64,000 nt of DNA. Source: Siphonodentalium dalli (Eukaryota; Mollusca; Scaphopoda; Gadilida; Siphonodentaliidae). How positions within the stretch are numbered: position 1 is the first letter of the stretch; the number at the start of each line of letters is the position of its first letter. The stretch is taken from positions 189,768,613 to 189,832,612 of the forward strand of contig CP136068.1 of the NCBI GenBank assembly GCA_032622095.1. The letters are read 5' to 3'. The position numbers and the translations under genes were made by a program. The notes under the pieces were generated by a model, which saw only the letters and a program-made list of their open reading frames with translations, did no database searches and was not told where the DNA came from. This document shows positions 5,780-49,132 of this stretch, one piece after another.

Positions 5780-6250
5780 TTATTTTATTACAGTGTTTTA
5801 ATAGTCTATTTTTATTTGAAGAGTTAAAAGTACTCAATCCGAAATGTCGCTCGCAAATCTGCGAAAATTACTATTTCCTTGGCATCGGCGGTAAAATATA
5901 TTTGATTCGAGTCGCGGAACCGACCCATCAAAGCTCAGAGTGATCAGATCTCGATGTTTGAATTCTATTATTTTTATTTTAATTGGCCCAGTAAATAGTC
6001 GATGAGAAGACTTCTCTGAACAAATTGCGGATGAAGATTGATAACTCTAAAAAACAAGTGACTTTTTTGTGTCAGATATTTGACAATAACATGTTTTGGG
6101 GCAATTTTATTAGTTGACTGTGATTAACATTAGTTTTGGGCAATTATTCGATTCTTATAACTGAAGCGGCATTTAAAAACAAATGTTGTTGTTGGAATCT
6201 GATGATATGGGGACCATCGAATCGGCTTGAGTACCTTTACGTGAAGAGTT
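5780..6250 (+). repeat. Dispersed repeat R2, copy 1
   Basis: Matches the reverse complement of ~36350-36870: shared blocks include TACTATTTCCTTGGCATCGG against its complement near 36790, and GGCATTTAAAAACAAATG.../ATATGGGGACCATCGAATC near 36420-36460. A further partial copy is at ~39950-40040. No coding frame persists, and the class is unknown. Confidence 0.6.
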
Positions 6251-30979: not shown

Positions 30980-31743
30980 GAAATAATTGAATATATTGAA
31001 GATTACAAACCACATATAATAGCACTTAATGAAACAAAATTAGATCACAAATCAAAAATCCGCTTTCCAGGATTTAACTTAATACGGAAAGACCGCAATT
31101 GCCACGGCGGAGGTGTAGCCTTCCTTATCCAACACAACCTCAAATACAAACTGGTAGAAAATATTGCACCTATTGATAATGATGGAAATGTTATTAATGA
31201 TGAAGTTATTGCTATAAATATCACTATTAACAACAAAAAAGTCACCATTATCTCCCTGTACTACCCTCCACATGATACCTCTTTACCCAATCTAGAAACA
31301 CTAAAATTCTTTACAAAAAGAAATAAACAATGTATATTTCTAGGCGACTTCAACACCAAACATCAATTTTTCAATAGCAAAACAACAAACAAACATGGCG
31401 ACATCCTATTTGACATCAAAGAAGAATTAGAACTTATTCACTTAAATGATTCTGGAGATCCAACCCATTGTGCAACTAATACAAGGGTATGGGATATAAT
31501 AGACCACCCGTTCGCTACGGAGGAAGCTGCCAAACTCAGCATCGAAACCACCATAGGGGCTGATGTTGGAAGCGACCACCTCCCGCTCGAACTAAAAATA
31601 AAAAAAGTTAAATTAAGAAGAAACATAGGCAAAGCCGACTGGCAAATATTCAAGCAAGAAATAATTTCAAATCTGTCAAACTCTGACCTAAATTCACCCA
31701 GAGCTCTAGAATTAGCTGCAATAAATATATCGGAAAGACTTAA
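30980..31743 (+). pseudogene. LINE ORF2 first part: apurinic-type endonuclease
   Basis: A continuous frame without a start codon. It shows IIALNETKLD (the catalytic Glu motif), HGGGVAFLI, SLYYPP, LGDFNTKH (the D.N motif, near 31343), NDSGDPTH and GADVGSDHLPLEL (the SDH motif at 31571-31585). These are the ordered motifs of LINE-encoded APE-like nickases, which cut target DNA to prime reverse transcription. A TAA at 30977 precedes the frame at the 5' truncation. The frame is interrupted at 31740-31743 by the TTAA insertion site and resumes in phase at 47234. Confidence 0.85.
31740..31743. repeat. Left TTAA target duplication of the Kolobok-like element
   Basis: TTAA directly before AGGGGAAGGC. 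The partner is 47232-47235. Confidence 0.9.
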
Positions 31744-31937
31744 AGGGGAAGGCAACCCACGGCCAATTCGGCATTTGTGAAAATGATATTTTATATTGAA
31801 ATGATATCACAAGTTACAGAACTCAAATCATCCGCATATTGACGTACTGACATTTAGAAGTATCGAAATCGGTACATTGTGAACTATCAAACGGAGGCCG
31901 CCATTCGGGCGACAGAATTATCTCCCCTGCAAGATCG

Positions 31938-31961
31938 TGACGTAGTAAGTCCACTTCCGGT
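31938..31961 (+). promoter_or_regulatory. Paired CRE-like and ETS-like sites, left end
   Basis: TGACGTA, a 5-nt spacer, then TCCACTTCCGGT. It lies 194 bp inside the left terminus and ~170 bp before the transposase start codon. The same pair with the same spacing lies at the right end in mirror orientation. CTTCCGGT is the complement of an ETS core (ACCGGAAG), and TGACGTA resembles a CREB/ATF site. Confidence 0.6.
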
Positions 31962-32129
31962 AAATACGCAGATTTTATTAGAGGTGTGTCAAGAAACGAC
32001 TTTCGGAACGCAAAGAAGAGTGAAGCAGAAGAAGTCAATTTCCGGTTAAATCCAGTTCTGTTTTCGTCTGCTCTCATCGGTCAAGCTATGATTTGTTTCT
32101 CTATTTAATCAAGTTTTACATTTATAAGC

Positions 32130-32573
32130 ATGCCTGAATGTCAGGCGATTAATTGTGTTACGAAATGCGGCCAGTCAAAGAGTTTGTTTCGATTTCCAAA
32201 TCCTGAACAAACCGCGGAAAATAAAAAATTATGTAAAATTTGGATAGACAATTTGAAAAATGCAAAATTAAATTTCAAAACATTCTGTTGGAGCCCGAAG
32301 TATGTGGTATGTCAAGACCATTTCGAACCTGAATGTTTTGACATTAATCCGGTCGCTCAGAGTCTTGGTTTCGGCACACAGAGAAAGCGTTTGAAGCCCG
32401 GTGCGGTGCCGACAATCATCGATGCTGCTGTATTCAAATTCAGTGGTACATGTACTGGTACTACTAGTGGTAGTGGTACTGGTACTGGTAGTGGTAATAC
32501 TAGTATAAGTCAGCCACCTAAGTCTAAGAAGCGCAATACAAGTGTATTGTTAAAAAAGTTGAAAGATGCCAGG
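32130..32573 (+). CDS. THAP-DDE transposase, exon 1 (THAP DNA-binding domain)
   Basis: Codes for 148 residues starting at the first ATG (MPECQAINCV). A complete THAP zinc finger occupies residues 4-96: Cys4 and Cys9, Trp38, the C-x2-H pair Cys61/His64 (VVCQDHFEP) and the closing AVPTI signature at 92-96. A Gly/Thr/Ser-rich linker and a basic KKLKDAR coiled-coil start follow. I end the exon at 32573 because AGG|GTGAGA is a strong donor in phase 0. Reading on gives a stop after ten more codons. THAP domains bind DNA sequence-specifically. In transposases of the P and Kolobok groups they recognise the element's ends. This exon starts 386 bp from the left TTAA. Confidence 0.85.
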
Positions 32574-32713
32574 GTGAGAATTATTGATAAAAAAATAAAA
32601 TAAAATGATGAAAAATAAAAATTATAAAAATTGAGAATATAAAATGATGAAAAATTTAATTGAGAATTATAATTAACAAATAAATGAAAGTCATCTTACT
32701 TAGGCTATAACTT

Positions 32714-33535
32714 ATGGGAGGCCCTTTTCACATTAATTATTTACGCTTAAGTGCAAATAACTTATATCATTTGCACTTAAGCGCAAATAAAAATTAATAT
32801 GCATTGATTCCCCCTTGAATTAAATTCAAATGGCACAGGCCTAGGCTAAACACATCACTAAAGTTTATATAGCCCCACCATATGATAGAAACAATCCCTC
32901 AGTAACCCCAAGATGTTTTATGACCATGGAAATGGAATAGATCTGTGAAGGATATGTCTCTTTTACAAAATATATACTATATCTCTGGGATCTCTTGGGG
33001 ACAGGGATGCTGATATTATGAAAATAGGGGTTTTTTCCCTATTTCAACTTCAAGTCAATAAGTACACCATATGAGGGAAGCAAACTCCAGTACCTGGTAA
33101 CCCCTAATTCCCTATTTATGGTCATGGAAATGGTATATATCTGTGCAGGAGATGTCCCTTTAATAAAATATACTTGAGCTCTGGGAGTGAGGCACCAATT
33201 CTTGGGACATGGCAGGGACAGAGATGCTGATATGCATATGGATTTTTTTCTTCAACTTTCCAGTCTGTATGGGCCCATGATAATATAATATGAGATGGAC
33301 TCAATCATTCACATCAGAGGGATGTAAGGGAGTGTTAGGTATTTGCGCTTAAGTGCAAATGATTTGCGCTTAAGTTAAGCTCAAATAAATTGATAGACAC
33401 ATATTTGCGCTTAAGTGCAAATGATTTGCGCTAAAGCGTAAATGATTTGCGCTTAAGAGCAAATGATTTGCACTTAAGTGCAAATGATTTATGCTTAAGT
33501 GCAAATAAATAATAAATGTGAAAAGGGCCTCCCAT
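32714..33535. mobile_element. TIR element with arrayed palindromic subterminal repeats (in intron 1)
   Basis: Termini ATGGGAGGCCCTTTTCACATT are inverted at both ends. Flanks TATAACTT and AATAACTT look like an 8-bp duplication with one mismatch. Next to the right end the palindrome TTTGCGCTTAAGTGCAAATG is repeated about six times (33339-33507), with two related copies near the left end (32750-32790). Such arrays are typical transposase binding sites of hAT-like elements. No ORF of transposase size is present. It lies in intron 1 of the THAP transposase gene. Confidence 0.65.
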
Positions 33536-34320
33536 AATAACTTGTGTTTAAATTTTAATATACTCCTGGTTCTATTTGTGACAGTGACACTTCAATTTAA
33601 AAAAAAAAAAATTTAACAAAATTTTAAATGTTTTTCTTCGGAAGGTTCTAACTTCTATAAGTTCTAAGTTGAGTGGATGTTTCACATTAAGTAATTTAAT
33701 TTGAACAGATTTACACTATAAAAACAGAATCATACTGACTGTTATAATGTTACAGAAATAACCGATATATACCTTACAGAAATAAACCCGGGGGGGGGGG
33801 GGGGTAAATCTATTTTTCTCAGAAGAATTATAATATAAATATATCAGAAATATTGTCAGCTGACACTAGTGACAGCACTGGTAACAACTTGTATTTGCCA
33901 ATTTGGATACTTATAATAAACATAATTTTGTTTTCATTAATGTCCAGAGTAGTTTACATCAATTATATTATTAAATTATTAAATGATTTAATAATAAAAA
34001 ACAAAATCAGGGTGAAGGTGGAGCTCACATGTGACATAATATTTTAGAATTATGGAGAAAATCAGATTCATCACTTGAGTTAAAAGTATAAATGTATTCG
34101 GGAACATCGACTTACAAATTTAATAAAAAAAAAATTAAAAAAATAATAGCACCCTTTGTGCTGGTATCCAAGTTGCAATACTGTGTGTCGACTGGCTGAT
34201 AATATATCAGTATATAATATATATCACAGTAACTAAGGCTAGCGGTTAACATGCGCATGTTGTGACATTGAGTAACCACAAATTTACCCCATGGTTGCAT
34301 GGAGTTGTCCACCACTACCA
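33536..34320. other. Intronic AT-rich sequence
   Basis: No gene seen. A run of 14 G lies at ~33790-33803 and (A)n tracts at 33599 and 34129. Confidence 0.5.
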
Positions 34321-34321
34321 G

Positions 34322-34940
34322 CCCCCTCCCCTCCAATGAATAAGCTTTCACCTACGCCTATGCCACAATGGTGTACATATTAAAGAAACGGGGTGAAAGC
34401 GGGCTCTCTGGGAACCCCTAACAATAAATGGGCTCTTCTACACTACCCCCTCCAACGAATAAGCTTTCACCTACGCCTGCATCACAACTGCATACATATT
34501 AAAGAAACGGGGTGAAAGCGGGCTCTCTGGGTTCCCATCCTTATTTTGAGGATTAGGTACACTGGGATTCCACTCACCCCTAACAATAAATGGACTCTTC
34601 TACCCCACCCCCTCCAACGAATAAGCTTTCACCTACGCCTGCGCCACAAGTGCGTACAGAAACTGGGTGAAAGCGGGCTCTCTGGGATCCCATCCTCATT
34701 TTGACGATTAGGTACACTGGAGTTCCACCCACCCCTAACAATAAATGGGCTCTTTTACCCCACCCCCATCCAACGAATAAGCTTTCACCTATGCCTGCAC
34801 CACAAGTGCATACATATTAAAGAAAAGGGGTGAAAGCGGGCTCTCTGGGATCCCATCCTTATTTTGATGATTAGGTACACTGGAGTTCCACCCACCCCTA
34901 ACAATAAATGGGCTCTTCTACCCCACCCCCATCCAACGAA
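34322..34940 (+). repeat. ~160 bp tandem repeat, about four units
   Basis: Units start CCCTCCAACGAATAAGC at about 34325, 34446, 34609, 34765 and a partial at 34928. Each contains TTTCACCTACGCC, AAACGGGGTGAAAGCGGG and CCTAACAATAAATGGGC. The first period is shortened to ~121 bp by a deletion and the others are 158-163 bp. It lies in intron 1 of the transposase gene. Confidence 0.85.
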
Positions 34941-35038
34941 AAATTAAATGGAGAATTTCTAACAAATCCCACAAGAAATAGCAATATATATTTCAATCAG
35001 AAAATATGGTTATTGAATGTGTAAAAATTTGTTTCCAG

Positions 35039-35170
35039 TTGAGAGAGCGAGTGAAAGACTCTGTGAAGAGATGTGCCTTGAAGCGGAAAACTGCCAATAT
35101 TGAATGCGAGGGAAGTATTGTGGAGAAAATGGCTAAATTGTCTGATACTGAACCAGATTATTTGAATGAG
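35039..35170 (+). CDS. THAP-DDE transposase, exon 2 (coiled-coil linker)
   Basis: 44 codons, LRERVKDSVKRCALKRKTAN to SDTEPDYLNE, between an acceptor (TTTGTTTCCAG) and a donor (GAG|GTGTGTAAG). Both borders are phase 0, matching exon 1 and exon 3, and the sequence continues the basic helix begun by KKLKDAR at the end of exon 1. It is inferred from splice signals, phase and the absence of stops. No transcript evidence is available. Exact borders could shift by a few bases. Confidence 0.6.
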
Positions 35171-35612
35171 GTGTGTAAGATATCCAAGTGTTTTCTCATT
35201 TTAGCTCAATTTGATCCACAATGTCAAGATGAGCTATATTGTCATGGGGTTGTGTCCCTTGGCTCTCAGTGCCTATTAAACATTTTATCTTGCAGCCCAC
35301 ATTTCTCACCTGGTCGTAAAAAACATTTGGTGTGAGGCCACATTAAAATAATTGCTCAATTTTACATCCAGATCCAACGGTATTCAACATCACTTTAAAT
35401 ACTTAAAGCCATACCTGTATATGGACAAAAACATGAGCATGTGATGTACAAGTGGTATATGCAATTACAATTTATTACATGCAGTTCCCACCTCTCAGAG
35501 AATCAACGGTTTGGAATAAGTCACAAAATGCCCCAAAATGGGTTACTCTGTGACAAGTCCCTTCAACCCTACCAGATCAACGAGAGGAGAAACATGCATG
35601 AAGTCAGACACA

Positions 35613-35772
35613 CAGTAATGCTCTAATTAATCAACTTCTTAACCACAGCAGAATTATTCGTAACTTTTCATTGTTGTCATTCATTGGCAACAAGCCATAT
35701 TTCCGACTAAATCCTGAAAAATTACCCATAATTCTGCTGTGATTAAGAAGTCGATTAATTAGAGCATTACTG
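35613..35772. mobile_element. CAGTAATGC fold-back MITE, copy 1
   Basis: Almost the whole 160 bp is an imperfect palindrome: CAGTAATGCTCTAATTAATC pairs with its complement at the right end. TA follows the right end (CA at the left). It belongs to a four-copy family inside the Kolobok-like element. In intron 2. Confidence 0.8.
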
Positions 35773-35774
35773 TA

Positions 35775-36340
35775 CCACCAAACACAAACAGTGAGAAGTA
35801 ACAGTGGATGTACCTCTTAAAATTCCATAATAGAATATCTGACACCAGTACATGTAGGTATTTGGTTAGCTGAACCTACAACAGCTGATGGGTAAGTAAC
35901 AGGATACATGATCCTAATAATGAGAATACATGTAAATTAAATTAATTATTTATTTGAAATATAAACTATAGATAATATATTAACAGACATAAATGTGTAT
36001 GGTTAAGTAATTTTACATGGACATTGGAAATGAGAATAAGATGGAATGATTTGTGAGTTGAATGATCTGATAATGGAAATGATAATTTATCAAAATATGT
36101 CTAATGAAGTGATAAATGAAAGATGAAATTGACTACTTAAAAGCTTATATTATTAAAGTACCAAAATCTACTATTTGTTTAAAGGCCCACTTAATTTTCG
36201 AATGCCCAGATAACATTATACACAATATATTCCATATTATATACCATTTGGAAGAGGAAACAGAAATATATATATTCCACCAGAATTCCAACTAATAGAT
36301 AGAGTTATTCCCCTTCCATTGAGAATTATAGACTTTAGAG
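35775..36340. other. Intronic sequence, nothing recognised
   Basis: AT-rich part of intron 2 without repeats that I could match elsewhere in the window. Confidence 0.4.
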
Positions 36341-36349
36341 CAGTCTGGA

Positions 36350-36870
36350 TCAAAATTAAGCACAGAACACACATCGGTACTAGTAATCGATAATAAAGGT
36401 ACTCAATCAGATTTGATGGTCCCCATATCATCGGATTCCAACAGTTTTTTTTAAATGCCGCTTTCGAATCGATTAATTGCCCAAAAATAATGCTGACCAC
36501 TGTGAACTACATGTATAGTATAAAATTTACCAAAAACGTGATATTTATCAACATTTTGTTCAACAAAATATGGCCGCATTGCAACTTTTCAACAGCCAAA
36601 GCCACTTGATTTTAGAGTTAGCTATCTTCATCTGCAATTTGGTCTGAGACAGTCGCCTTGGCAAATTCTTACCAGTCCACAAAAAAGTACTCATCTCGAG
36701 AAATAACAAATATCAATAATTAATTTCTGTCGGGCCACTCTTGAGATTTGATGGGTGGATTCATCGTCTTGAATCAGAATAATTATTTGCCCCCGAAGCC
36801 AAAGAGGTAGTAATTTGGGAGCGTTACATATAATTCGGATTATGCATCTTTAAATAATGTACATTATTAC
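36350..36870 (-). repeat. Dispersed repeat R2, copy 2
   Basis: Reverse-complement match to 5780-6250 (GATGGTCCCCATATCATCGG, AAAGAGGTAGTAATTTGGGA). The same last block recurs at ~39970-40035. It lies inside intron 2, so it was inserted or carried after the transposon formed. Confidence 0.6.
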
Positions 36871-37557
36871 ACTGTATTTTTCTCGATTTGTTTGGTCCCT
36901 AAAACACACAATCAACAGGGTGGGTGAGCATTTTCTAATTTGAAACTGGAAATATTGCACTCCTGGGTGGTGGGTCCCCAGTCTCAAATATAAAATAAAA
37001 ATATACCCCCCCCCTCCCCCGTTCTATAAGTTCCAATATTTTGTCCACAAATAATTTGTTTATGATATAATACATTCAATATTTACATACCGGTATCATG
37101 TTACATGTACATATTGAAAGATGTATGGGCATTAGTGCTGGGTACCAATTGGAAAAATACACATTGAAAGTGTGCATGTGTTATTTATGAGAATAGCTTC
37201 ATTTATTGACTTCAACAGAAAGGAGAAAATATACACAAAATCTTGAAGCACATACTACTAGAGATCATATAATGTAACTTGAATTTATCTCTGCAGTAAC
37301 AGGATTTTAGCAGGGTTTCGCTGTATCAAAAGCTGCAATAATAGCTAGCAATAGCATACAATTTTGTATTTTACATAATCAATGGCAAAAGTCTACTTAT
37401 TTTCAAAATCATTTCTATTTTTTAAAGTTTTACCACAATGTACATGGGGATAAACTTTCACTCTCGGTATCAATCATGAAATGCCCATATATCTGTAAGT
37501 TCAAACTTCATGTATGAAAGGTGATGATGCTTAAATTATCCCTCCTTATTTCCGCAG

Positions 37558-39426
37558 GAAAGACATTCATCATATGAGAGAGATTCTGCACCCGGAGCGA
37601 AAGATTCATCAGAATGTTTACTCTCCTGTGGTCATGTGTGTAAGCAATGTGAGAAAGAAAATTCAGTATTCATCAGTCGTGAGCACAGTTATTACATGAA
37701 AGAGAAATGTTCTGAGAAAGAGTGTGTCAATGTGTCAATTCCAAATGCCTCCAGTACACCTGTTAAATGTACCACAAGTTCTACTATCCCTACAAATACA
37801 TGTATTTCTGATCCTTCTTCATCTGAAAAAGCGGTTCTGTTGCAAACAGGTTCTGATCAGATTGAGAGCTCTGAATCTGAATGTGATGATAGGTTTTCTG
37901 ATAAGGATTACGTGTGTGAATCTTCGGATTCAAATACAGAATCTGAGTGTGAAAATGAATCTGAAGAATCAAAGCTACATGTAGTGAATGAGAGAAAGTT
38001 CATAATTTTTGAAAGCCGTCTAAATGAAATTATTTCCTTAGTGAAGTGTAGTGAGTGTGGATGTCCCCCTGATATGGATGACACAAAAAAAGAATTGACC
38101 GGAACATCTTTAACAATATCTACTTTTTGTACTGGTGGGCATGCGATTTTAAAGTGGTGTTCTCAGCCTTTCATTGGGAAATTACCGGCAGGCAATCTGC
38201 TTGCTGCTGCATCAACCCTATTCTCGGGACAAACCTATTCCCACATCTCACAATTTGCTGACTTTTTTAATATACAATATATTTCTCGCACAACTCATCA
38301 CAAACTTGAGAGACAAAATGTTATGCCAGTGGTGAAGAAAACATGGGAAGATATGCGCAAAAATAATATAAATGACATTAAGGAATCTGGCAAAAAATTA
38401 AGGCTCGCTGGTGACGGCCGAAGTGATTCCCCGGGATTTAGTGCTAAATATTGTACTTATTCTTATATGGATATAGACACAAACAAACTAATTCACTTCC
38501 AAAATTCCAATGTGAATGAAACTGGAAGCTCACCTAAATTAGAAGCGAAAGCTTTTAAAGAATCCTTCTTGGAACTTAAAAATGAAGGCTTATCAATAGA
38601 TGTAATTGTGACTGACAGACACACAACAATAAGAAAAATTATCAACACTGAGTTCAATCAAACTGATCATCAATTTGACCCATGGCATATGAGTAAAAAC
38701 ATTAAAAAAAGACTTCTGAAAAAAGCTAAATTGAAGGGGAATGATGAGATACATGGGTGGATAAAAGCCATAGTAAACCATTTATGGTATTGCTCCAAAA
38801 ATTGTAATGGCGACAAGGTTCTGTTGGAAGAAAGTTGGCGTAGTATTGCACATCATATTATTAACACACATAAATTTAAAGGAAAGAAATTCAAAAAGTG
38901 TGGTCATAAACCAATTCCACGTGTTGTTGCGAAGAAAAAGAAATGGCTGAAAAAAGATTCAAAGCCACACAAAGCTATCAAGGAAGTTGTAGAAAATAAA
39001 AGACTGTGCAAAGATATCAAAATGCTAAACATGTTCTGCCACACCGGCAGACTGGAAGTTTTTCACAGTTTGCTACTCAAATATGCGCCCAAACGGTTAG
39101 AATTTGATCATGATCAGATGTGGACAAGAATAGCGCTGGCCGCTATAGACCATAACACAAACCTTGGTAGGCCACAAAAGGTTGGTCCTGATGGTGAACT
39201 CAAGTTCAAAAGTGTATACCCCAAAGCATCAGCACAGTGGGTAGTTAAGCCGATGTACGAGCAAAAACAGTACAACTGGGTTAATCAAATGATGATAGAA
39301 GTTGTTAAACAGAAAAGAGAGAAATTTTTGCCAATAGAGCATAGAATGAGAGAAGGGAATATAGCACCATCACCGGCACCACCTAAGAAAGAACTCATTC
39401 AGAAGTATCAAAGTCGTTTTAAGTGA
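37558..39426 (+). CDS. THAP-DDE transposase, exon 3 (Cys-rich region and DDE catalytic core)
   Basis: 622 codons after an acceptor (TTATTTCCGCAG), phase 0, ending TGA. With exons 1 and 2 the product is ~814 residues. A Cys-rich segment (LLSCGHVCKQC...) is followed by an acidic Ser/Glu-rich linker and the core. In combined numbering the candidate catalytic residues are Asp478 in LAGDGRSDSPGF, Asp545 in IVTDRHTTIRK and Glu692 in TGRLEVFHSLLL, with the accompanying FDPWHMSKN motif (His569). This motif order is what I know from THAP-linked Kolobok-type transposases. The core looks uninterrupted, so the protein may be functional. Codon 37636 is GTG inside the frame, not a start. A MITE sits 45 bp after the stop. 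Confidence 0.82.
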   Translation, partial: ERHSSYERDSAPGAKDSSECLLSCGHVCKQCEKENSVFISREHSYYMKEKCSEKECVNVSIPNASSTPVKCTTSSTIPTNTCISDPSSSEKAVLLQTGSDQIESSESECDDRFSDKDYVCESSDSNTESECENESEESKLHVVNERKFIIFESRLNEIISLVKCSECGCPPDMDDTKKELTGTSLTISTFCTGGHAILKWCSQPFIGKLPAGNLLAAASTLFSGQTYSHISQFADFFNIQYISRTTHHKLERQNVMPVVKKTWEDMRKNNINDIKESGKKLRLAGDGRSDSPGFSAKYCTYSYMDIDTNKLIHFQNSNVNETGSSPKLEAKAFKESFLELKNEGLSIDVIVTDRHTTIRKIINTEFNQTDHQFDPWHMSKNIKKRLLKKAKLKGNDEIHGWIKAIVNHLWYCSKNCNGDKVLLEESWRSIAHHIINTHKFKGKKFKKCGHKPIPRVVAKKKKWLKKDSKPHKAIKEVVENKRLCKDIKMLNMFCHTGRLEVFHSLLLKYAPKRLEFDHDQMWTRIALAAIDHNTNLGRPQKVGPDGELKFKSVYPKASAQWVVKPMYEQKQYNWVNQMMIEVVKQKREKFLPIEHRMREGNIAPSPAPPKKELIQKYQSRFK

Positions 39427-39471
39427 AATATGGAAATGAAATTATGATTCACATCTGACTACAGTAATGCC

Positions 39472-39678
39472 CAAAGTAATTGACCACTTAACAACAGCAG
39501 AATTATGGGTAATGTTTCAGGATTTAGTTGGAAATATGGTTTGTTACCATTCATCGGAAAGCTCTCGGGGGGAGGGGGGGGGGGAGAGAACGGCAACAAG
39601 CCATATTTCCAACTAAATCCTGAACAATTACCCATAAATCTGCTGTGGTTAAGTGGTCAATTACTTTGGGCATTACTG
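39472..39678. mobile_element. CAGTAATGC fold-back MITE, copy 2
   Basis: Palindromic element CAGTAATGCCCAAAGTAATT...GGGCATTACTG with TA on both sides. A G-run (GGGGGGAGGGGGGGGG) interrupts its centre. Confidence 0.85.
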
Positions 39679-39949
39679 TATGCGAGTATTCAACTAAAAG
39701 CCATATTCGATTTTGATTTAGGGTGTTTTGATTACTGAAAGTAAAATCTCAATTATTTCAACAAATTTCCTATTCAAATTAGCAATGAGAAATTTGAATA
39801 CTTTCATGATTCAGTTCTAGAATTGTTTAGTTTCAAGTTATGACCCCTTGCTGATACAATGATGCATAAGGTATCAACATACAAGTTACTAGAAGCACTT
39901 TTGATATATTGTGACAAGCTCTTGAGCTCAAAAATACAATTTTCAGGGC

Positions 39950-40045
39950 TGTGAATAAAATATTTTATACCTGCGAAGCCAAAGAAATAGTAATTTGGGA
40001 GCATTACACATGTAATTCCGATCATGCATCTTTAAGCTCTCTATA
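39950..40045 (-). repeat. Dispersed repeat R2, partial copy 3
   Basis: Shares GAAGCCAAAGAAATAGTAAT and AATTCCGATCATGCATCTTT with the R2 copy near 36800. Confidence 0.6.
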
Positions 40046-40537
40046 CATGTAGCTGACATTATATGTGCAAAGATTAATCAGATGAGAATCATTTCTTCAA
40101 TTCAAACCATGTTCAGTCTTAAAGCGACTACTGTAGCAGTGGGTCTGAGGGTCAAAATGTTTTATGTCAAAAACAGAGAAAAAATAATAAAATAAGCATA
40201 CTTTGTTCTTATAAAACTGATAATTTTTATCATCCTAATTACAAGATATTGACAATTTGAGAATACATGTAGGTTAATAGATGTGTATGAACAAACAGTA
40301 CAGCCGCAGTGACAGATACTAGTAAGCAAATCACTGACAACACAATGGTTCTAGAATTGCCAGAATTTGAGATTTGAGGAAATATATGGTACATGTACAT
40401 GTACATAATGAAAACAAGAACAAAGTTTGCTTATATTAAGTTCTCTCTGTGATTTGCTTTTGACAGAAAAGGTTTAAGCCTCAGACTCACTGTGACACCC
40501 ACTAATAGCTTTAACTTGAGTCTAAATTGTACGGCTA

Positions 40538-40750
40538 CAGTAATGCCCTAAGTAATCTACCTCTTAACCAAAGCAGAATTATGGGTAACTTTCCAGGATT
40601 TGGTCAGAAATATGGCTTGTTGTCATTCTTTGGAAAGCTCTCACAGAGAGCTTTCCGATGAATGGCAACAAGCCATATTTTCAATTAAATCCTGAAAAGT
40701 TGCCCATAATTCTCCTTTGGTTAAGAGATCGATTACTTAGGGCATTACTG
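40538..40750. mobile_element. CAGTAATGC fold-back MITE, copy 3
   Basis: CAGTAATGCCCTAAGTAATC...GGGCATTACTG flanked by TA. The central AAAGCTCTCACAGAGAGCTTT is a perfect short palindrome at the loop. Confidence 0.85.
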
Positions 40751-40868
40751 TACATGTACTTTTAAACATAAATGATAAAATGAATAGTCTTTTAGACTCA
40801 ACGAAAAATTAATATGACTTCTGAATTTCTGATGTGAGCTGCTATGACATTATTAGGTGCTTAAGTAA

Positions 40869-41336
40869 GGCCAAAGAAAAAAGATACTATGTTTCCGTAC
40901 ATCGACCGACCCTAAAAATAACCCGCCGACCCTAATCTTTTAAGGTTGGGTGCACTGGCTACCTCTAGACAATGGGATGCTGTTGTCACAATACAAGTAC
41001 GGTATAATGGCGGTATTATGGGTAAAATTCTTATAAAAGTTAGTGACATCAATCTCATACCAAGTTTATAGCCAAATTTATAAAATGTGGTATGTGAAAA
41101 ATAAATAACATCCTTATTAAAGCATGAAGTAAGTTTGATCTTTCATCAATATTAATGTATATTTCCTAGTGCTGTGTTTATCACAAGTTGGCGTTTTATG
41201 TCATTTTCGGTCGAGGTAATTCAATATTTCTGCAGCTGGATAAAAAATATCAAAATTAAAAAAAAAAAAATCCCTACCTACCTACCCTAATTTTTTCACT
41301 TCGTTATCGGAAACATACTATCTTTTTTCTTTGGCC
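40869..41336 (+). mobile_element. PIF/Harbinger-like MITE, complete copy
   Basis: Inverted termini GGCCAAAGAAAAAAGATACT and its complement, flanked by the 3-bp duplication TAA (40866-40868 and 41337-41339), as expected of PIF/Harbinger (TWA). Subterminal GACCGACCCTAAAAATAACCC at the left and CCCTACCTACCTACCCTAATT at the right make the ends distinguishable. No ORF. 468 bp. Confidence 0.85.
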
Positions 41337-41339
41337 TAA

Positions 41340-42160
41340 CTGGTCCGTAGCAGGTGCTATGCAAGGAAAGCTACTGTAGAAGTTGCTCATCAATGTTGTG
41401 CACAAGTTCTATTATTTAAAGACTTCCAAACTTTTAACAGGGCCCCTAAGGTTCAGTATTCAACTATTCAAATAATTGTTTTCATGTTTACCAGCATGTA
41501 AATATTAAAGCCACATGTAGACTTAAAAACTCCCCAATTATCTAATACTAGCTGAGGTACATGCTCGGATAAAGATTAGTAACAAACTTGATTAATTGTC
41601 AGTGTCACTTTAAGTCACATAAAATCCACAACACCTATCTCATGACACTTTACACTTCAAGTGTCAAGTTACCCATGTGCTCATGATGTGGATCAATAAA
41701 TTCAGGCCCCCTCCCCATATACATGTACATGTACCGTATATGGGCATATAAAAAATGATTTATTGGCAAAATTTGGAGATTCACTTTGAGACAGTCCACC
41801 CAGCACCCGCCCCCTCTAAGTAAAACATCATGTGGGAGAATAATGGGAACCACAAAAGAAGGGCTACATGCATAATATGTACACACAGGATGGGGGTTGT
41901 AACATAAACCACTGCACATTTGCTGGTATACATGTACACAGATGGCAGAAGGCCAGTGAAGTGTCTTACAATTTCCTGTGAATATGCTGCAGGTAGTGTG
42001 AGATGGTGTGATTCCGGGCCTCTTGTCTGTCTGATCAGGATTTAAAATGCCAAACTAATGACAAATAGTCAATTAAGAATAATTAATCAGAACAAACAAT
42101 TTGACAAATGATTATACATGTATCAAGTCATTAGAAATGTTACCGTATGTTTTAGTAAGA
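41340..42160. other. Spacer in the Kolobok-like element, nothing recognised
   Basis: AT-rich, with scattered TACATGTA motifs. No exon-like frame or repeat partner noticed. Confidence 0.45.
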
Positions 42161-42165
42161 TACTA

Positions 42166-42282
42166 GTACTAGTCACAGGCACCTAGGGAAAATTACTAAA
42201 ATACCAATATAGACTACCAGTATATACCGGTAGTGCATATTGGTATTTTAGTAATTTTCCCCAGCGACCTGTGGTACTAGTA
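42166..42282. repeat. Fold-back sequence
   Basis: ACTAGTCACAGG...GGGAAAATTACTAAAATACC pairs with GGTATTTTAGTAATTTTCCCC...CCTGTGGTACTAGT around a ~35-nt loop. This is a compact palindromic MITE or hairpin. Confidence 0.85.
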
Positions 42283-42361
42283 TAGGTGTAGTACATGCAG
42301 TAATAGCACATATGACTATTCAACTATTTGTAATTTTATTTTCAGTTTTTAGTGCAATTAA

Positions 42362-43842
42362 GGCCAAAGAAAAAAGATTTGATGTTTCCGCATATCGACC
42401 GACATTAAAAATAACCGCCGACCATTTAGAATATTTTTATTGATATTTTGAAAAAAAGCCGAAAATTTCTATAAAAAAATGTAAAAAAGGGTGTTTTTTT
42501 TAACACCAATGCACATACAAAATGTTCATTAGTGACCATAAAGTGACAGCTGAACCTCAAAAGTTAAACTTAAAACTTCAGATTGATGGGCATGATTTTG
42601 CAATTTTAATTTCATGCGAGTCGATCTCAGACCAGCTTTGACCTTGTTTAGGAACTATCAACAGACATGGTGGGTGTATATTGGTACATGTATATACATG
42701 TACTATATATACATGTAGGGGTTATCACCATACATGGTAGGGGTACAGCTACTGTCTCCAAAAACCAGGCATGCTAGGTTGGATGTACATGTACATGTTC
42801 TTGCTACTTCCAGACAATGGGATTTAGTCATCGCAACGCAATTAGACCAAAGAAAAAAGATTGTATTTTTCCGGTAACGGAGCGGGAAAATTAGGGTAGG
42901 TAGGTAAGAATTTTTTTTTTTTAAGTATTACTTGATCACCACAATGGAAATATACATTAAGATTGATAAAAAATCTAACTTCATGCTCAGGTATGTTTTT
43001 TATTATTCACATACATGTAGAACATTTTCATAAATTTGGCTATAAACTTGGTAAGAAATTGATGTCACTAACTTTTTGTAAGAATTTTACCAATAATATG
43101 TGGTGATAACATCTAAACATGTATATATACAGATAGTGAGATACACACCCACCATGTCTATTGATAGTGTTCCATAGGTCCCAAACAAGACATAAAGCAA
43201 GCAGGAGATACAAGGTAGTCCGAGATACACTCTCAGGAAATTAAAATGCAAAATGTATGCCCATCGATCCACAACCCATCACACACGTGGGGCCTCTGAG
43301 ACAGAGCTGTCAATTCATGGTCATGTTTCACAGGGATATGTTAGAAACCATGTGTTTTGCACACTAAAGGTCATCAATATTTATGAGTATTAATAGTGGT
43401 AAAAACAGTAAAAAAAAAGAAGTTTAGGGTCGGCGGGTTATTTTTAGGGTCGGTCGATGTACGGAAACATACAATGTAGTATCTTTTTTCTTTGGCCTTA
43501 CCGGTGTAATGGCGATATGGGTAAAAATTCTCATAAAACATTAGTGACATCATTTGATGCCAAGTAATATAGCTAAAATTATGAAAATGCAGTATGTGAA
43601 GAACAAATCACACACTTAAGCATAAACCAAGTTTGATCTTTTATTAAATCTTAATGTATATTTCAACTGTTTTTTCAAGTAATACTTTCCCCACAACATA
43701 AGTTGGCATTTTATGTCACTTCGGTCGAGGTAGTTCAATATTTCTGCAGCTGGATAAAGAATTTAAAAATTATATTAAAAAAATCCCTACCTGCCCACCC
43801 TAATTTTTTCACACAGTTAGCGGAAACATACCATCTTTTTTT
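42362..43842 (+). mobile_element. PIF/Harbinger-like MITE, copy interrupted by another copy
   Basis: Left part 42362-42841 starts GGCCAAAGAAAAAAGATTTG (TAA before it) and matches 40869 onward, up to the ACAATGGGAT block. The right part 43501-43842 continues with GTAATGGCG and ends with the GGAAACATACCATC block, lacking only the final bases. The gap is an inverted copy of the same family (42845-43497). The right terminus is eroded. Confidence 0.8.
42845..43497 (-). mobile_element. PIF/Harbinger-like MITE, nested inverted copy
   Basis: Inserted in reverse orientation into another family member, with the 3-bp duplication TTA (42842-42844 and 43498-43500). Ends GACCAAAGAAAAAAGAT and its complement. 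The GGGTAGGTAGG block is now at the left and GGGTCGGCGGG at the right. Confidence 0.85.
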
Positions 43843-44132
43843 TGTATATCTTATGTATATCTAACTAAAACTTATGTTTACACTCTCACACTGAATGGTA
43901 CTAGAAAGGCAGTATCAAGCAAATTTTGTTACACAAAGAAGATGTGCTACATATAAATTTCTCATATCTAACCAAAATTGTATTTAATTATCAGAACATG
44001 GAGTCAGTCAGGGTATCGGAAACAGAGAGGTTTTTTGTTTTGGCCTATAACAATACGTGCCATACATGTACTACCGTACCGTATCTAATGTTATCTTACT
44101 CAAAATGTTTTATGTAAAATTTCAAATGACTG

Positions 44133-44540
44133 CTACTCTTGGGGTCCAAATAAGCATAAGGTACAGAATAAGAGTATTTCCAACATACATGTAGAAGAAA
44201 GACTATCTGAAATGCTATAATATATTTATAAAAATTTGCACTGTTTGTTGTCATAGGAGTTACCAAACAGACTTCCAGCAACATGTTTGGACTATCTGTT
44301 CCCGATCTGAATATTTAAAAGGCTCCAGCAAATATGTTAGGCCTGCAGTGTAAATTTCTTGACAATGCCACTTTTTCAAATAAACATACACTCAGATTCA
44401 TACTGATACTGACTATTTTTTATATGTGGGTATGTAGTTTACTCCAGACTGGTACTGACCCAAATAAGAACCATACAGGGCGGCAACTTTTCCAACAATT
44501 AATAAGCATATGGGTATGCTTATTTGGATCCCAAGAGTAG
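44133..44540. mobile_element. Unclassified short TIR element
   Basis: Inverted ends CTACTCTTGGGGTCCAAATA and CTACTCTTGGGATCCAAATA (complement of the right end). No clear target duplication and no ORF. ~408 bp. Confidence 0.6.
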
Positions 44541-45009
44541 TAGCTAGTTTATCAGTGAATAATTTGGTCTGAATGAAAAACTAAATATTAAAATATCAGT
44601 GTCTTTAAAGTTTAATGCATCTTGTTTTCTGAAATGCCATACAACTGACATGGACGTGATTGGATTTTGGGGCAATATTTATTTCAATATTGTTAAATTC
44701 TTCAAGTGGACATACTACCACTGATGGGGTCACTCTCACCAAAAAAAAGTATTGAAAGGTATGTACATGTACATGTAGCTTTTGAAAATGTGCTGAAGGG
44801 TAGACAGGTTTTCATAAATACCACAGTTACTGGACATAAATTCCCAAAAATAATGGACATAGTCAAATTTATAAATTGGTATAACTACATGTACTAGTAG
44901 TAGTAATATATTGTACAGTACATGTAAGTGCTCAGGTAATGATGGCATTATCAACAAATAACATTTCTCAAATAAACACAATATACGGGGCATACCATAT
45001 ATCATGCTA

Positions 45010-45230
45010 CAGTAATGCCAAAAGTAATTGACCACTTAACCACAACAGAATTATGGGTATTTTTTCAGGATTTATTCGGAAATATGGCTTATTCAGTTAT
45101 TGCCATTCATCGGAAAGCTCACAGCGAAAGCTTTCTGATGAATGGCAACAAGCCATATTTCCGACTAAATCCTGAAAAATTACTCATAATTATGCTTTGG
45201 TTAAGTGGTCAATTACTTTGGGCATTAATG
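45010..45230. mobile_element. CAGTAATGC fold-back MITE, copy 4
   Basis: CAGTAATGCCAAAAGTAATT...GGGCATTAATG with TA flanks. Central AAAGCTCACAGCGAAAGCTTT near-palindrome, as in copy 3. Confidence 0.85.
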
Positions 45231-45232
45231 TA

Positions 45233-46326
45233 GTACGCACAGACCTGTACATGTATATGTTGCATGTTTCCTACATGTATATAAAACTTACTCATCTACA
45301 ACTCTGCAACGATAAATTCATTCCGGTCACCAAATTAGTTCCGAGTGACTCGTACACACAGAACACATGCATTTATTTTTTCAAAACACTGGTGACCTTC
45401 CAAGAATGCCCAAACAAAATGAGAATTTTAGATGGTCATTCAGAACTACTAGTACCGGTACCGGTAATTGCAAAACATGGAGACCATAATGAATTTATCG
45501 CTGCAGAGTTGTATGGTACTGGTAGATGAGTTACCGGTATCTACAGTATAGGAAACAGGTGACATACATGTATGCTCTGTGTTTTGTAGCCAATGCATTT
45601 ATTTGAGATTGTATTTTGGTTGATAAAGCCTGCTTTACTTTCGCTTCGCTCTTTCACTCTTTGTGATGCAATTTACTTCCGAGAGCCTAATACTAGTAGT
45701 ACGGGTCGATATAAATTATAATAGTACAGGGTGGAAAAGCTCTATAATTTTTATAACAGTACAGCCGTACAGGTTGGAATAATATACCAGGCTGCATCAG
45801 TACATGTACTAGTACATCCATATAAAAGTACAACATAGAAGTGCCGCCATCCGCTATATACATGTACTATGGTAGTATGTTAGAGAAACACAGAAAGTAA
45901 CTGGTGAATATAAATGATAAATACATGTACATATACGGACAGGTCCATTAACTGCAGTATATCATGTACTTCTTAAGTTCTATAGTTTTAAAGAGTTCAT
46001 AATCATACTGAAAATAGAATCAAAGAATAGCCTTTCAATAGGCAGGTCCACATATTGGACATGGTGAAATTAACCTGAAAGTACAGGGCCAAATAAGGAT
46101 CAATTGTCTAGGTCTGAATTTCATCAGAAAAACAATAAATGTACCGTACAACAGTAGAAATTTTATTAAATCCTTATTTTCTGGTACCGGTACTTTATTT
46201 CCAGCAACTGTGGTTATACTATAGACTGTTACATGTATATTTTCCGAGGTATTAGTTTGAAATACTGAAATAAGTGCACAATATACATGTACATGTACTT
46301 TTATACCTATATCCATAACAAATGAG
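45233..46326. other. Spacer downstream of the ballast-like gene
   Basis: No gene recognised. Notable are repeated TACATGTAC and GGTACCGGTA palindromes. The 110-codon ORF at 45197-45529 spans a MITE end and has no domain features. Confidence 0.45.
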
Positions 46327-46890
46327 TTAGTTGAACAATTCATCAGCATATTGAAAGCCTGTATATCTTCCTTCTGGATCTGGAAATGTATCGTGAATCT
46401 TCTTGATCACACATGCAGGCAAAGGTATTCTGTTGAAACGCCCCAGTCTCTCACCACGAAATGCCCACACAATAAACTGACGGTAAGCTGACAACCTGTA
46501 TTGCTTGTTTGTCAAAACCTCTGGAGCTCTTCTTCTTTGTTTTTTAAACCACATGATCTGAAGAAATGTCATCAGCAATACATCTGTGTCCAGAATCAAT
46601 TTTTCGAATTGTGCATTGGATGTAACACAGGAACGGCCATCAGGAATGAGTCCCTCACAATAGCTTTGTTCTCTGCAGCAAACACAGAATTCATCTTCGT
46701 CAATAGGGACGCAACACTCACACATACACCAATCTATCCCCAAAGAACGATCTCGGAAGCGGGGATCCACATTACTCCTTAGAATTGAAGATTCAGAATC
46801 AGATTGTTGAGCGTGTGACAACTCTTCCTCGGTAAATTCTGGCTCACAATTGTAGCCGATTGTTCCCATTAATTCGCCCGAGTCCGCCAT
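46327..46890 (-). CDS. P2X7 ballast-like (P2RX7_C-type) protein
   Basis: A 187-residue single-exon ORF. After an acidic N-terminus (1-50) come a Cys-rich block WCMCECC (54-60), CVCC (69-72) and further Cys at 78 and 88. Then come YRLSAYRQF (131-139), RLGRFNRIPLPACV (148-161), IHDTFPDPEGRYTGF (165-179) and a short tail. This is the order of motifs in the cytoplasmic C-terminal 'ballast' of P2X7 receptors, which binds zinc and nucleotide, as also found in stand-alone invertebrate proteins. There are no transmembrane segments and no P2X channel domain, so this is not a receptor. It is read toward the transposase gene and starts 341 bp from the right end of the Kolobok-like element, with a CRE/ETS block ~145 bp upstream. 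Its role in transposition, if any, is unknown. Confidence 0.85.
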   Translation of the reverse strand: MADSGELMGTIGYNCEPEFTEEELSHAQQSDSESSILRSNVDPRFRDRSLGIDWCMCECCVPIDEDEFCVCCREQSYCEGLIPDGRSCVTSNAQFEKLILDTDVLLMTFLQIMWFKKQRRRAPEVLTNKQYRLSAYRQFIVWAFRGERLGRFNRIPLPACVIKKIHDTFPDPEGRYTGFQYADELFN

Positions 46891-47032
46891 ATTTAACTAA
46901 ACATTGTGAAATTGCACTTTTAATAAGAATATCGGCGTTGAATAGATGAAAATTGATTTAATACCGATGTAAACAGCCACAAATTCAACACGGAAGCAAT
47001 AGAAATTAACAATGACGGCGATCACAATTTTA

Positions 47033-47056
47033 ACCGGAAGTGGATCTCATACGTCA
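47033..47056 (-). promoter_or_regulatory. Paired CRE-like and ETS-like sites, right end
   Basis: On the minus strand: TGACGTA, a 5-nt spacer, TCCACTTCCGGT, identical cores and spacing to 31938-31961. It lies 175 bp inside the right terminus and ~145 bp before the ballast-like start codon. Confidence 0.6.
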
Positions 47057-47231
47057 TCAATCGGCCTAAATGGAGTTCCCCAGTGGACAGCGGGTAGTTT
47101 GAAAAATGTGTGATTATTTTCTCCCAAAAGAGAAACACCAAACGTTTTTGTATCTTCTTGTATCTCGTATGGCTATCATTTGTGATAGTGATTATATCAT
47201 GGGCCTATTAATGCCACCATTTATTTCCCCT

Positions 47232-47235
47232 TTAA
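47232..47235. repeat. Right TTAA target duplication of the Kolobok-like element
   Basis: TTAA directly after TTTATTTCCCCT. The partner is 31740-31743. Confidence 0.9.
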
Positions 47236-49132
47236 TAATGCACTAAATTTAGCATGCCCCAAAAAAGAGGTAAAATCTCATACGTGGAGGGTGTCCAGAG
47301 ATACACTGAATCTTATAAGGTTCAAAAGGAAAATACGGAGACTCTCAGCGAAGAACCCCCATGACAATGAATATAAAACACTGTATAATAACCTCAATAG
47401 ACAAGTTAAACAAAAAATCAAAGAAGAAAAAAATGAGTCCTGGAAAAAAATAACAACCAGTCTAAATGACCAAAACATGGATAGAAAATTCTGGCAAACA
47501 TTCAAAACGCTTACGGGCCAAGGGAACAACGCAACATCAGATAACTCTAAATAACTAACTGACCAAAATGGAAAAAAATCTGAAAATGACCAAGAAAAAG
47601 CTCAAATCTTCGCAGAGAGTCTACGCAAAATCCATACCACCCATGAAGGCGATATATTTAACAAACGTTTTAAACGTTATGTCAACGATTACATCGATGA
47701 CAACTCAGAAATCTTCGCACCACTGCTAAAAGACAAAGTCGAACCGGGTGACGACGATCTCCTAATGACCAAAATCGATTTAGAAGAGGTGAGAAGGAAT
47801 CTAAACCGGGGAAAACCTAACAAAGCACCCGGCGACGACGATATCACGTACGGTGTAATTAGACAAGCGCCGAACGAGCTATTTATTCGTCTTACTAACC
47901 TATATAACAAATGCCTGAGACTGGGTTACTTTCCCAAAACATGGAAGACTGCAATCGGGACAATGATTCCTAAACCCGGCAAGGACCATACAATTCCAAC
48001 CAACTATAGGCCCAAAAGTTTATTGAAATGCACTGGTAAACTATTCGAAAGGATCATTAGCACTCGCATAAAGACTCACTTAGAGAGCATTAATTTTTTC
48101 AACAAATATCAACGGGCTTATAGAAGTGGAAAGGAGGGCATAGAACACGTATATCGATTAACAGAAGATATTAGAACGGCAATAAGCAGGCGCTGGGAAA
48201 CTGGGGCCATTTTCCTAGACGTTGAAAAAGCTTTCGATTCTGTATGGCATAATGGGCTCAGATACAAACTCAGAACACGCACAGAACTACCACAAAAAAT
48301 AGTTAGACTTCTATCATCATTCTTAACACACAGAAACATAGCAGTAAGGATAAATGATGAAATTTCAGAAACAGTAAATCTTAAAGCCGGTACCCCCCAG
48401 GGATCAGTCTTAAGTCCTCTCCTTTTTTTAATCTACGTAAACGATATACCTTTAGATTCTACACAAAATGTACAAGCATCACAATTTGCAGACGACTTGG
48501 GCATATGGACACTAGCAAAAGGAAATAAATTAATTGAACTTAGACTGCAAAAACAACTCACAGCACTTGAAAAATGGTGTTCGAAATGGAGAATAAAACT
48601 CAATGCAAATAAAACACAATTGGTAGTATTTGGAAACCTAATTCACAGCTCAAAGCCAAAACTCACGCTATTTAACGAACCAATAAAACAAAACAAAGAA
48701 GCAACTCTACTAGGATTCACATTAGATGAACACTTCACACTCAACAAACATATTAAGAATATTTCAACTAAAGCTTTACAAAGAACTGCACTCCTAACGA
48801 GACTTCGGGGCACAGGGTGGGGGGTCAACCCAACCACCCTAATCAAATTATATAAACAATTCATTCGCCCAGTCATGGAATATGGGGCAATAATTACTTC
48901 AAAATGCAGTCAATCAAACCTACTCAGAATGCAGCGGGCACAAAATGCAGCACTTAAGAAAGCCCTTTTCGAAATAGGCCCAACCCCCATTTCGGCCCTT
49001 CAATCGACTGCAGACATCCCATATATAAAACAAAGGCTACTAGAACTAGGGGACCTAACTTTAACTCGTATCAGTAACTCCAGTCTCATAACCGAATTAA
49101 ATCTGAGGAAGCTACTCCTCTACAAGGACTAA
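47234..49132 (+). pseudogene. LINE ORF2 second part: reverse transcriptase
   Basis: Continues the endonuclease frame after the TTAA site. An in-frame TAA at 47552-47554 breaks it, then the frame is open to TAA at 49132. Motifs in order: FAESLRKIH, RGKPNKAPGDDDI, NYRPKSLLKCTGKLFERII, FLDVEKAFDSVWH (catalytic Asp, near 48217), AGTPQGSVLSPLLFLIYVND and QFADDLGIW (FADD catalytic pair, ~48485-48496). W.RIKLNANKTQ and a C-terminal thumb LIKLYKQFIRPVMEYGAI follow. FADD and the general spacing suit Jockey/I-like LINEs. One nonsense codon and the nested transposon disable it. Otherwise the domain is well preserved. Confidence 0.88.

Follow-up and report, generated by a model that had tools for sequence, protein, structure and literature searches.

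The 64-kb stretch of the genome of the scaphopod mollusc Siphonodentalium dalli analysed here (the window; contig CP136068.1 of GCA_032622095.1, positions 189,768,613 to 189,832,612) carries what is very probably an autonomous-looking cut-and-paste transposon of the Kolobok superfamily, Kol0 type. The 15,488-bp element (31744-47231) codes for two proteins, a transposase with THAP and DDE domains and KolX, an intact stand-alone counterpart of the ballast domain (P2RX7_C) of P2X7. It lies in a long interspersed nuclear element (LINE), where it is flanked by duplicated TTAA and has inverted AGGGGAA ends; the insertion appears clean, KolX is native to this class of element, and the left part appears to have been acquired from a second subfamily by recombination. 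The ends, the duplications, the two genes, their conservation and their convergence are all evident from sequence. The main features of the element are as follows.

31740..31743, no strand, left TTAA target-site duplication (exact match)
31744..31750, + strand, left terminal inverted repeat AGGGGAA (7 bp, exact)
31938..31964, + strand, left copy of a 27-bp subterminal inverted repeat (22/27 identical), candidate transposase-binding site
32130..32573, + strand, THAP exon of the transposase (148 codons; PF05485), with donor GT at 32574
32574..37557, + strand, predicted phase-0 intron of the transposase gene (GT/AG, phase 0 on both sides)
37558..39426, + strand, catalytic DDE exon, with D296, D363 and E510 (numbering of open reading frame (ORF) 37528-39426) from alignment with homologues
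46327..46890, - strand, KolX/ballast (P2RX7_C) gene including the stop codon (187 aa; PF20478), convergent with the transposase
47030..47056, - strand, right copy of the subterminal inverted repeat, pairing with 31938..31964
47225..47231, - strand, right terminal inverted repeat AGGGGAA (7 bp, exact)
47232..47235, no strand, right TTAA target-site duplication (exact match)

Structure and classification of the element

The initial annotation had described an element with TTAA duplications and AGGGGAA termini, a THAP-DDE transposase reading inward from the left and a P2RX7_C-type ORF reading inward from the right, and each of these features was recovered, exactly so at both ends. The start codons of the THAP exon and KolX lie 386 bp from the left and 341 bp from the right element end, respectively, as had been claimed. 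Within the window, the 11-mer TTAAAGGGGAA is confined to the two element ends, with one occurrence at each (0.05 expected from shuffles), while the TTAA followed by the left terminus, with two mismatches or fewer, has 16 matches in the genome as against none for a reversed-pattern control. The score of the 27-bp subterminal repeat was equalled by three of 500 Markov shuffles, which constitutes modest support.

A Pfam scan of six ORFs identified the THAP domain (PF05485, E 1.3e-15), and the predicted splice fuses it with the DDE exon into a single frame of 770 aa. The DDE ORF (37528-39426) has 182 matching proteins (E<=0.001; 6178 candidates), with the best match at 1.6e-188. Its catalytic residues were placed in an alignment of the window copy with 21 of 120 listed homologues, and it further contains DPWH at 384-387 and H/C zinc-finger residues at 443, 448, 458 and 460. 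Genome contigs searched with the DDE alignment, and viral contigs searched with the DDE, KolX and both alignments, yielded no confirmed relatives.

The element shares with the Kolobok superfamily the 4-bp TTAA target-site duplication, the 5'-RR and YY-3' termini (here AG...CT) and a DDE domain with a C/DxxH motif and a zinc finger between the second D and the E (PMC9587614). The THAP DNA-binding domain, described together with the DDE and H2CH motifs as a usual feature of Kolobok transposases (PMC6004289), is also present, joined in frame by the predicted intron. KolX beside the transposase is characteristic of the Kol0 lineage (Kolobok-1_XT type; PMC9587614), with which the element is grouped by these features; in contrast to published Kol0, the present family has a length of 15.5 kb with nested repeats, and its left end and THAP exon have apparently been exchanged. 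No CCHC finger follows the first D on reading of the window DDE sequence, which is consistent with the element lying outside KolobokP, E, D and 5. KolobokP, of the same superfamily (PMC9587614), was also rejected on the lack of long terminal direct repeats (~450 or 660 bp), the outer 500 bp sharing at best 27 bp, and these inverted, and on the absence of a His-Me finger among the Pfam matches of the six ORFs. The same six ORFs contain no piggyBac transposase domain, and piggyBac, which likewise targets TTAA, was rejected.

The insertion interrupts a LINE, the two parts of which flank the element directly.

30980..31739, + strand, interrupted LINE, endonuclease part (PF14529, PF03372)
47236..49132, + strand, interrupted LINE, reverse transcriptase part (PF00078), with one in-frame stop at 47552-47554

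When the element and one TTAA are removed and the flanks joined, the LINE frame stays open. The joined 360-bp flank was scored at 40 places in the genome (of 177 candidates), every match spanning the junction and all being judged by match length, none base by base. Essentially the whole query is contained in 376-386 bases at 37 of these places, ~20 bases longer with the place of the difference unread, while at the other three, positions 40-360 are contained in 318-321 bases with no length difference at the junction. Judged from these matches, the insertion at TTAA in the LINE is clean, copies of the LINE elsewhere in the genome matching the joined site.

KolX as a native gene of the element class

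Within the host assembly (2.23 Gb, nine contigs), matches of the 557-bp left end number 44 and those of the 341-bp right end 13. KolX is found in the same place and orientation in eight of ten right-end loci (window counted), some with frame breaks, while L028 retains an N-terminal KolX piece and L027 has no KolX; the right terminus with TTAA is present in six of the ten. The eight loci are not all independent, since L025 and L026 seem to derive from a single segment by duplication. The initial annotation had proposed that family copies lacking the ballast ORF would mark it as a chance passenger. Among the nine best-scoring other left-end copies, read over 10-35 kb, the ORF is present in the same place and orientation in eight, which combine a whole or partial THAP exon at the left with a whole or partial convergent KolX at the right. 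The ninth (C1_181) has neither DDE nor KolX within 20 kb, a span in which its right end was not reached. Both termini with TTAA occur in seven of the nine, with different flanks and lengths of 5.2-28.0 kb. The DDE exon is present in three (C7_27, C2_115 and C8_115), and five lack it between their ends, only one of which (C1_139) has a full KolX frame; selection on KolX in such DDE-less copies was considered and is not claimed.

The same pairing is observed genome-wide, where 112 KolX-type loci compare with 52 DDE loci (window counted; same-strand fragments merged within 5 kb for KolX or 7 kb for DDE; one extra locus found with a third DDE query, C1:200146757, kept out of the 52). KolX lies within 35 kb at 36 of the 52 DDE loci (within 15 kb at 33) and the nearest KolX is convergent in all 36, as expected from the proposal of the initial annotation that the ballast protein is a native second gene. 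Some of these loci look like segmental duplicates and are not all independent. For the 36, uniform random placement gives 0.18 on average and never more than 4 in 1000 trials, and all DDE-KolX pairs within 35 kb comprise 38 convergent and one divergent. The sequence evidence identifies KolX as native to this Kolobok class in this genome, and the interpretation of the initial annotation withstood its own refutation test there.

Two counts weigh against a complete link: 16 of the 52 DDE loci have no detected KolX, and 75 of the 112 KolX loci no detected DDE, within 35 kb; exons and divergence limit what can be detected of either. Some of the DDE-less KolX loci are deleted element copies, and others may be deleted elements, host genes or neighbours of undetected transposases. 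The 75 loci would also suit a host gene caught by chance in, or lying merely beside, the transposon, but this was rejected and has next to no likelihood given that KolX recurs at the same site, convergent with the transposase, in most of the copies examined, distant families among them, including the eight right-end loci, the eight left-end copies and all 36 nearest pairs in this genome. Several DDE-less KolX ORFs are open frames of ~146 aa with 34-36% identity. DDE loci with no KolX detected within 35 kb, such as C4:52053328 and C4:265917872, may belong to other Kolobok lineages.

Both genes have been conserved at the protein level. Between the window and the 17.7-kb copy C7_27, synonymous (pS) and non-synonymous (pN) differences amount to 0.81 and 0.25 in KolX and to 0.82 and 0.275 in the DDE; synonymous sites are saturated in both, and amino-acid change has therefore been restrained in both. 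Three open KolX copies of a second subfamily show pN/pS values of 0.30, 0.17 and 1.3 among themselves, the last based on very few changes.

KolX and the ballast domain of P2X7

The ballast domain of the KolX product (PF20478, E 6.2e-21), predicted in the initial annotation and borne out by Pfam, is accompanied by a match to P2X7 in the PDB (1.5e-11) and by 32% identity to the rat ballast domain. All seven zinc cysteines are kept in the window KolX (C55, C57, C60, C71, C72, C88 and C160) as invariant alignment columns, and the length is similar to that of the P2X7 domain; KolX differs from P2X7 in lacking the channel part and in its GDP-contact positions. Among the rat GDP-contact residues R546, H547, R574, R578 and K583, only R546 is kept (R132); the R578 position is occupied by H in the window KolX, while R stands there in two of the three second-subfamily copies with open frames, of which C2_115 is without the first zinc cysteine. 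Only R546 and R578 are reported to persist in ballast proteins from other invertebrates (PMC7016195). Queried alone against 5.8 billion proteins, KolX returned no match (28 candidates), while KolX combined with a rat P2X7 segment returned 31 proteins at E<=1, of P2X7 and ballast-domain type, those with a named organism all being vertebrate.

The THAP exon would bind the element ends, with the 27-bp subterminal repeat at 31938 and 47030 as candidate site, and the DDE domain would cut and join at TTAA, catalysing cut-and-paste transposition. KolX may be a zinc-stabilised accessory protein which assists or regulates the transposase. Direct action with the transposase is given somewhat less than even odds, the remaining weight lying on regulation or nuclear entry.

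The association of ballast proteins with Kolobok, of which the initial annotation knew no earlier description, is already published, its central inference being that of Kojima and Bao (2022; PMC9587614). According to these authors, Kol0 families encode a DDD/E transposase and KolX, the latter, identified with the ballast fold, clearly resembles human P2X7 over residues 476-595, seven cysteines being conserved, the Kolobok membership of ballast-like proteins had been overlooked in earlier work, and P2X7 arose through fusion with KolX. Among the papers listed by the literature searches, this is the only study connecting KolX or ballast with Kolobok. The dozens of loci in a single genome confirm that one class of Kolobok transposons regularly carries the P2X7 ballast domain as its second gene. 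Carriage by Kolobok would explain the multi-copy stand-alone ballast genes without stable neighbours in many animals, and annotators are cautioned that such ORFs should not be called P2X7 receptors.

An origin of ballast as a host gene, captured once by an ancient Kolobok, with vertebrate P2X7 drawing on the host line, is considered unlikely, although nothing in the present data dates the capture. Stand-alone ballast proteins are known from sponges to fish, two markers are linked to ballast genes across invertebrates, and few-copy ZCD genes with linked markers extend from sponge to sea urchin (Rump 2020; PMC7016195), the last of which favours a host origin. However, Kojima and Bao argue that the transposon was the source (PMC9587614), and the linked markers of Rump might themselves be transposon genes. 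A tick ORF in which a THAP domain (printed 'TAHP') precedes ballast (PMC7016195) looks like transposon genes by analogy with the present element, and the linked markers may perhaps be of the same kind.

A probable hybrid element

The left part of the window element, comprising the left end, THAP exon and ~2 kb of intron (31740-34943), appears to be derived from another Kolobok subfamily than the element body. The left end and THAP exon are ~90% identical to the second subfamily, whereas the DDE and KolX of that subfamily are synonymously saturated relative to the window; in the THAP exon, pS and pN between the window and C7_27 are 0.057 and 0.035. Block by block, the left part is ~89-97% identical to C7_27, C1_139, C6_102 and C4_58, which carry second-subfamily KolX. 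Along these copies, colinear similarity can be followed as far as 34.59-34.94 kb and breaks off within an intronic tandem array or at its end.

34414..34940, no strand, 163-bp tandem array (3.3 copies)

The same ~89-97% identity is shared by C1_181, the body of which was not seen, with colinear similarity ending at 34.11 kb, and C5_158 and C2_115 closely resemble the window over no more than the first 0.7-1.0 kb. C8_115 agrees with the window on the left (95-98%), in the catalytic exon (97%) and in KolX residues 23-187 (98%), and therefore represents the same hybrid build. C1_11.94 matches the window on both sides and has no catalytic exon. Two older copies, C4:179710579 and C1:66928323, with left ends known through the THAP match alone, have KolX pieces 87-94% identical to that of the window and THAP identities to the window of 54% and 41-60%, respectively.

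The simplest reading of these comparisons is that a body of type A acquired its left end and THAP exon from type B, these letters being labels coined here. The similarity might instead reflect strong constraint on the ends and THAP domains, which must recognise one another. This is most improbable and was rejected: the similarity takes in the ~2 kb of intron and the synonymous THAP sites and then halts at the tandem array, and the two older copies have a different THAP.

It is judged rather more probable than otherwise that Kolobok elements are modular, the left end and THAP exon forming a cassette swapped between lineages via repeats in the big intron, with the catalytic exon, KolX and right end staying together. 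At least the window element, C8_115 and C1_11.94 would then be hybrids with old bodies and a new end-recognition module, suggesting a route by which an element changes this module. By extension, the sponge-to-sea-urchin 'ancestral synteny' of ballast may represent the transposon's own gene pair. The DDE and KolX were kept together through the exchange because there was a single breakpoint, which says little on function. The hybrid build is ordinary in kind. Among the papers listed by a literature search on hybrid transposons in general, none names Kolobok in its title, although module exchange in Kolobok may already be in print.

Nested repeats and neighbouring features

Four palindromic units resembling miniature inverted-repeat transposable elements (MITEs) are nested in the element, with TACAGT at the left end of three of the four.

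35609-35777 (approximate), no strand, palindromic MITE-like unit
39458..39682, no strand, palindromic MITE-like unit
40529-40759 (approximate), no strand, palindromic MITE-like unit
45005-45234 (approximate), no strand, palindromic MITE-like unit

The units measure ~170-230 bp each. Rfam searched at gathering threshold returned nothing. The sister copy at C8:115289750-115324749 (L045-L048) contains five repeats ~1.87 kb apart that match window positions 39557-40241 and make up part of its 33-kb length, while at C2:115930300-115950299 (L043, L042) two diverged DDE copies lie inside one 28-kb element. A repeat at window positions 5865-6239 is 68-74% identical to positions 36394-36816 inside the element and represents a dispersed repeat.

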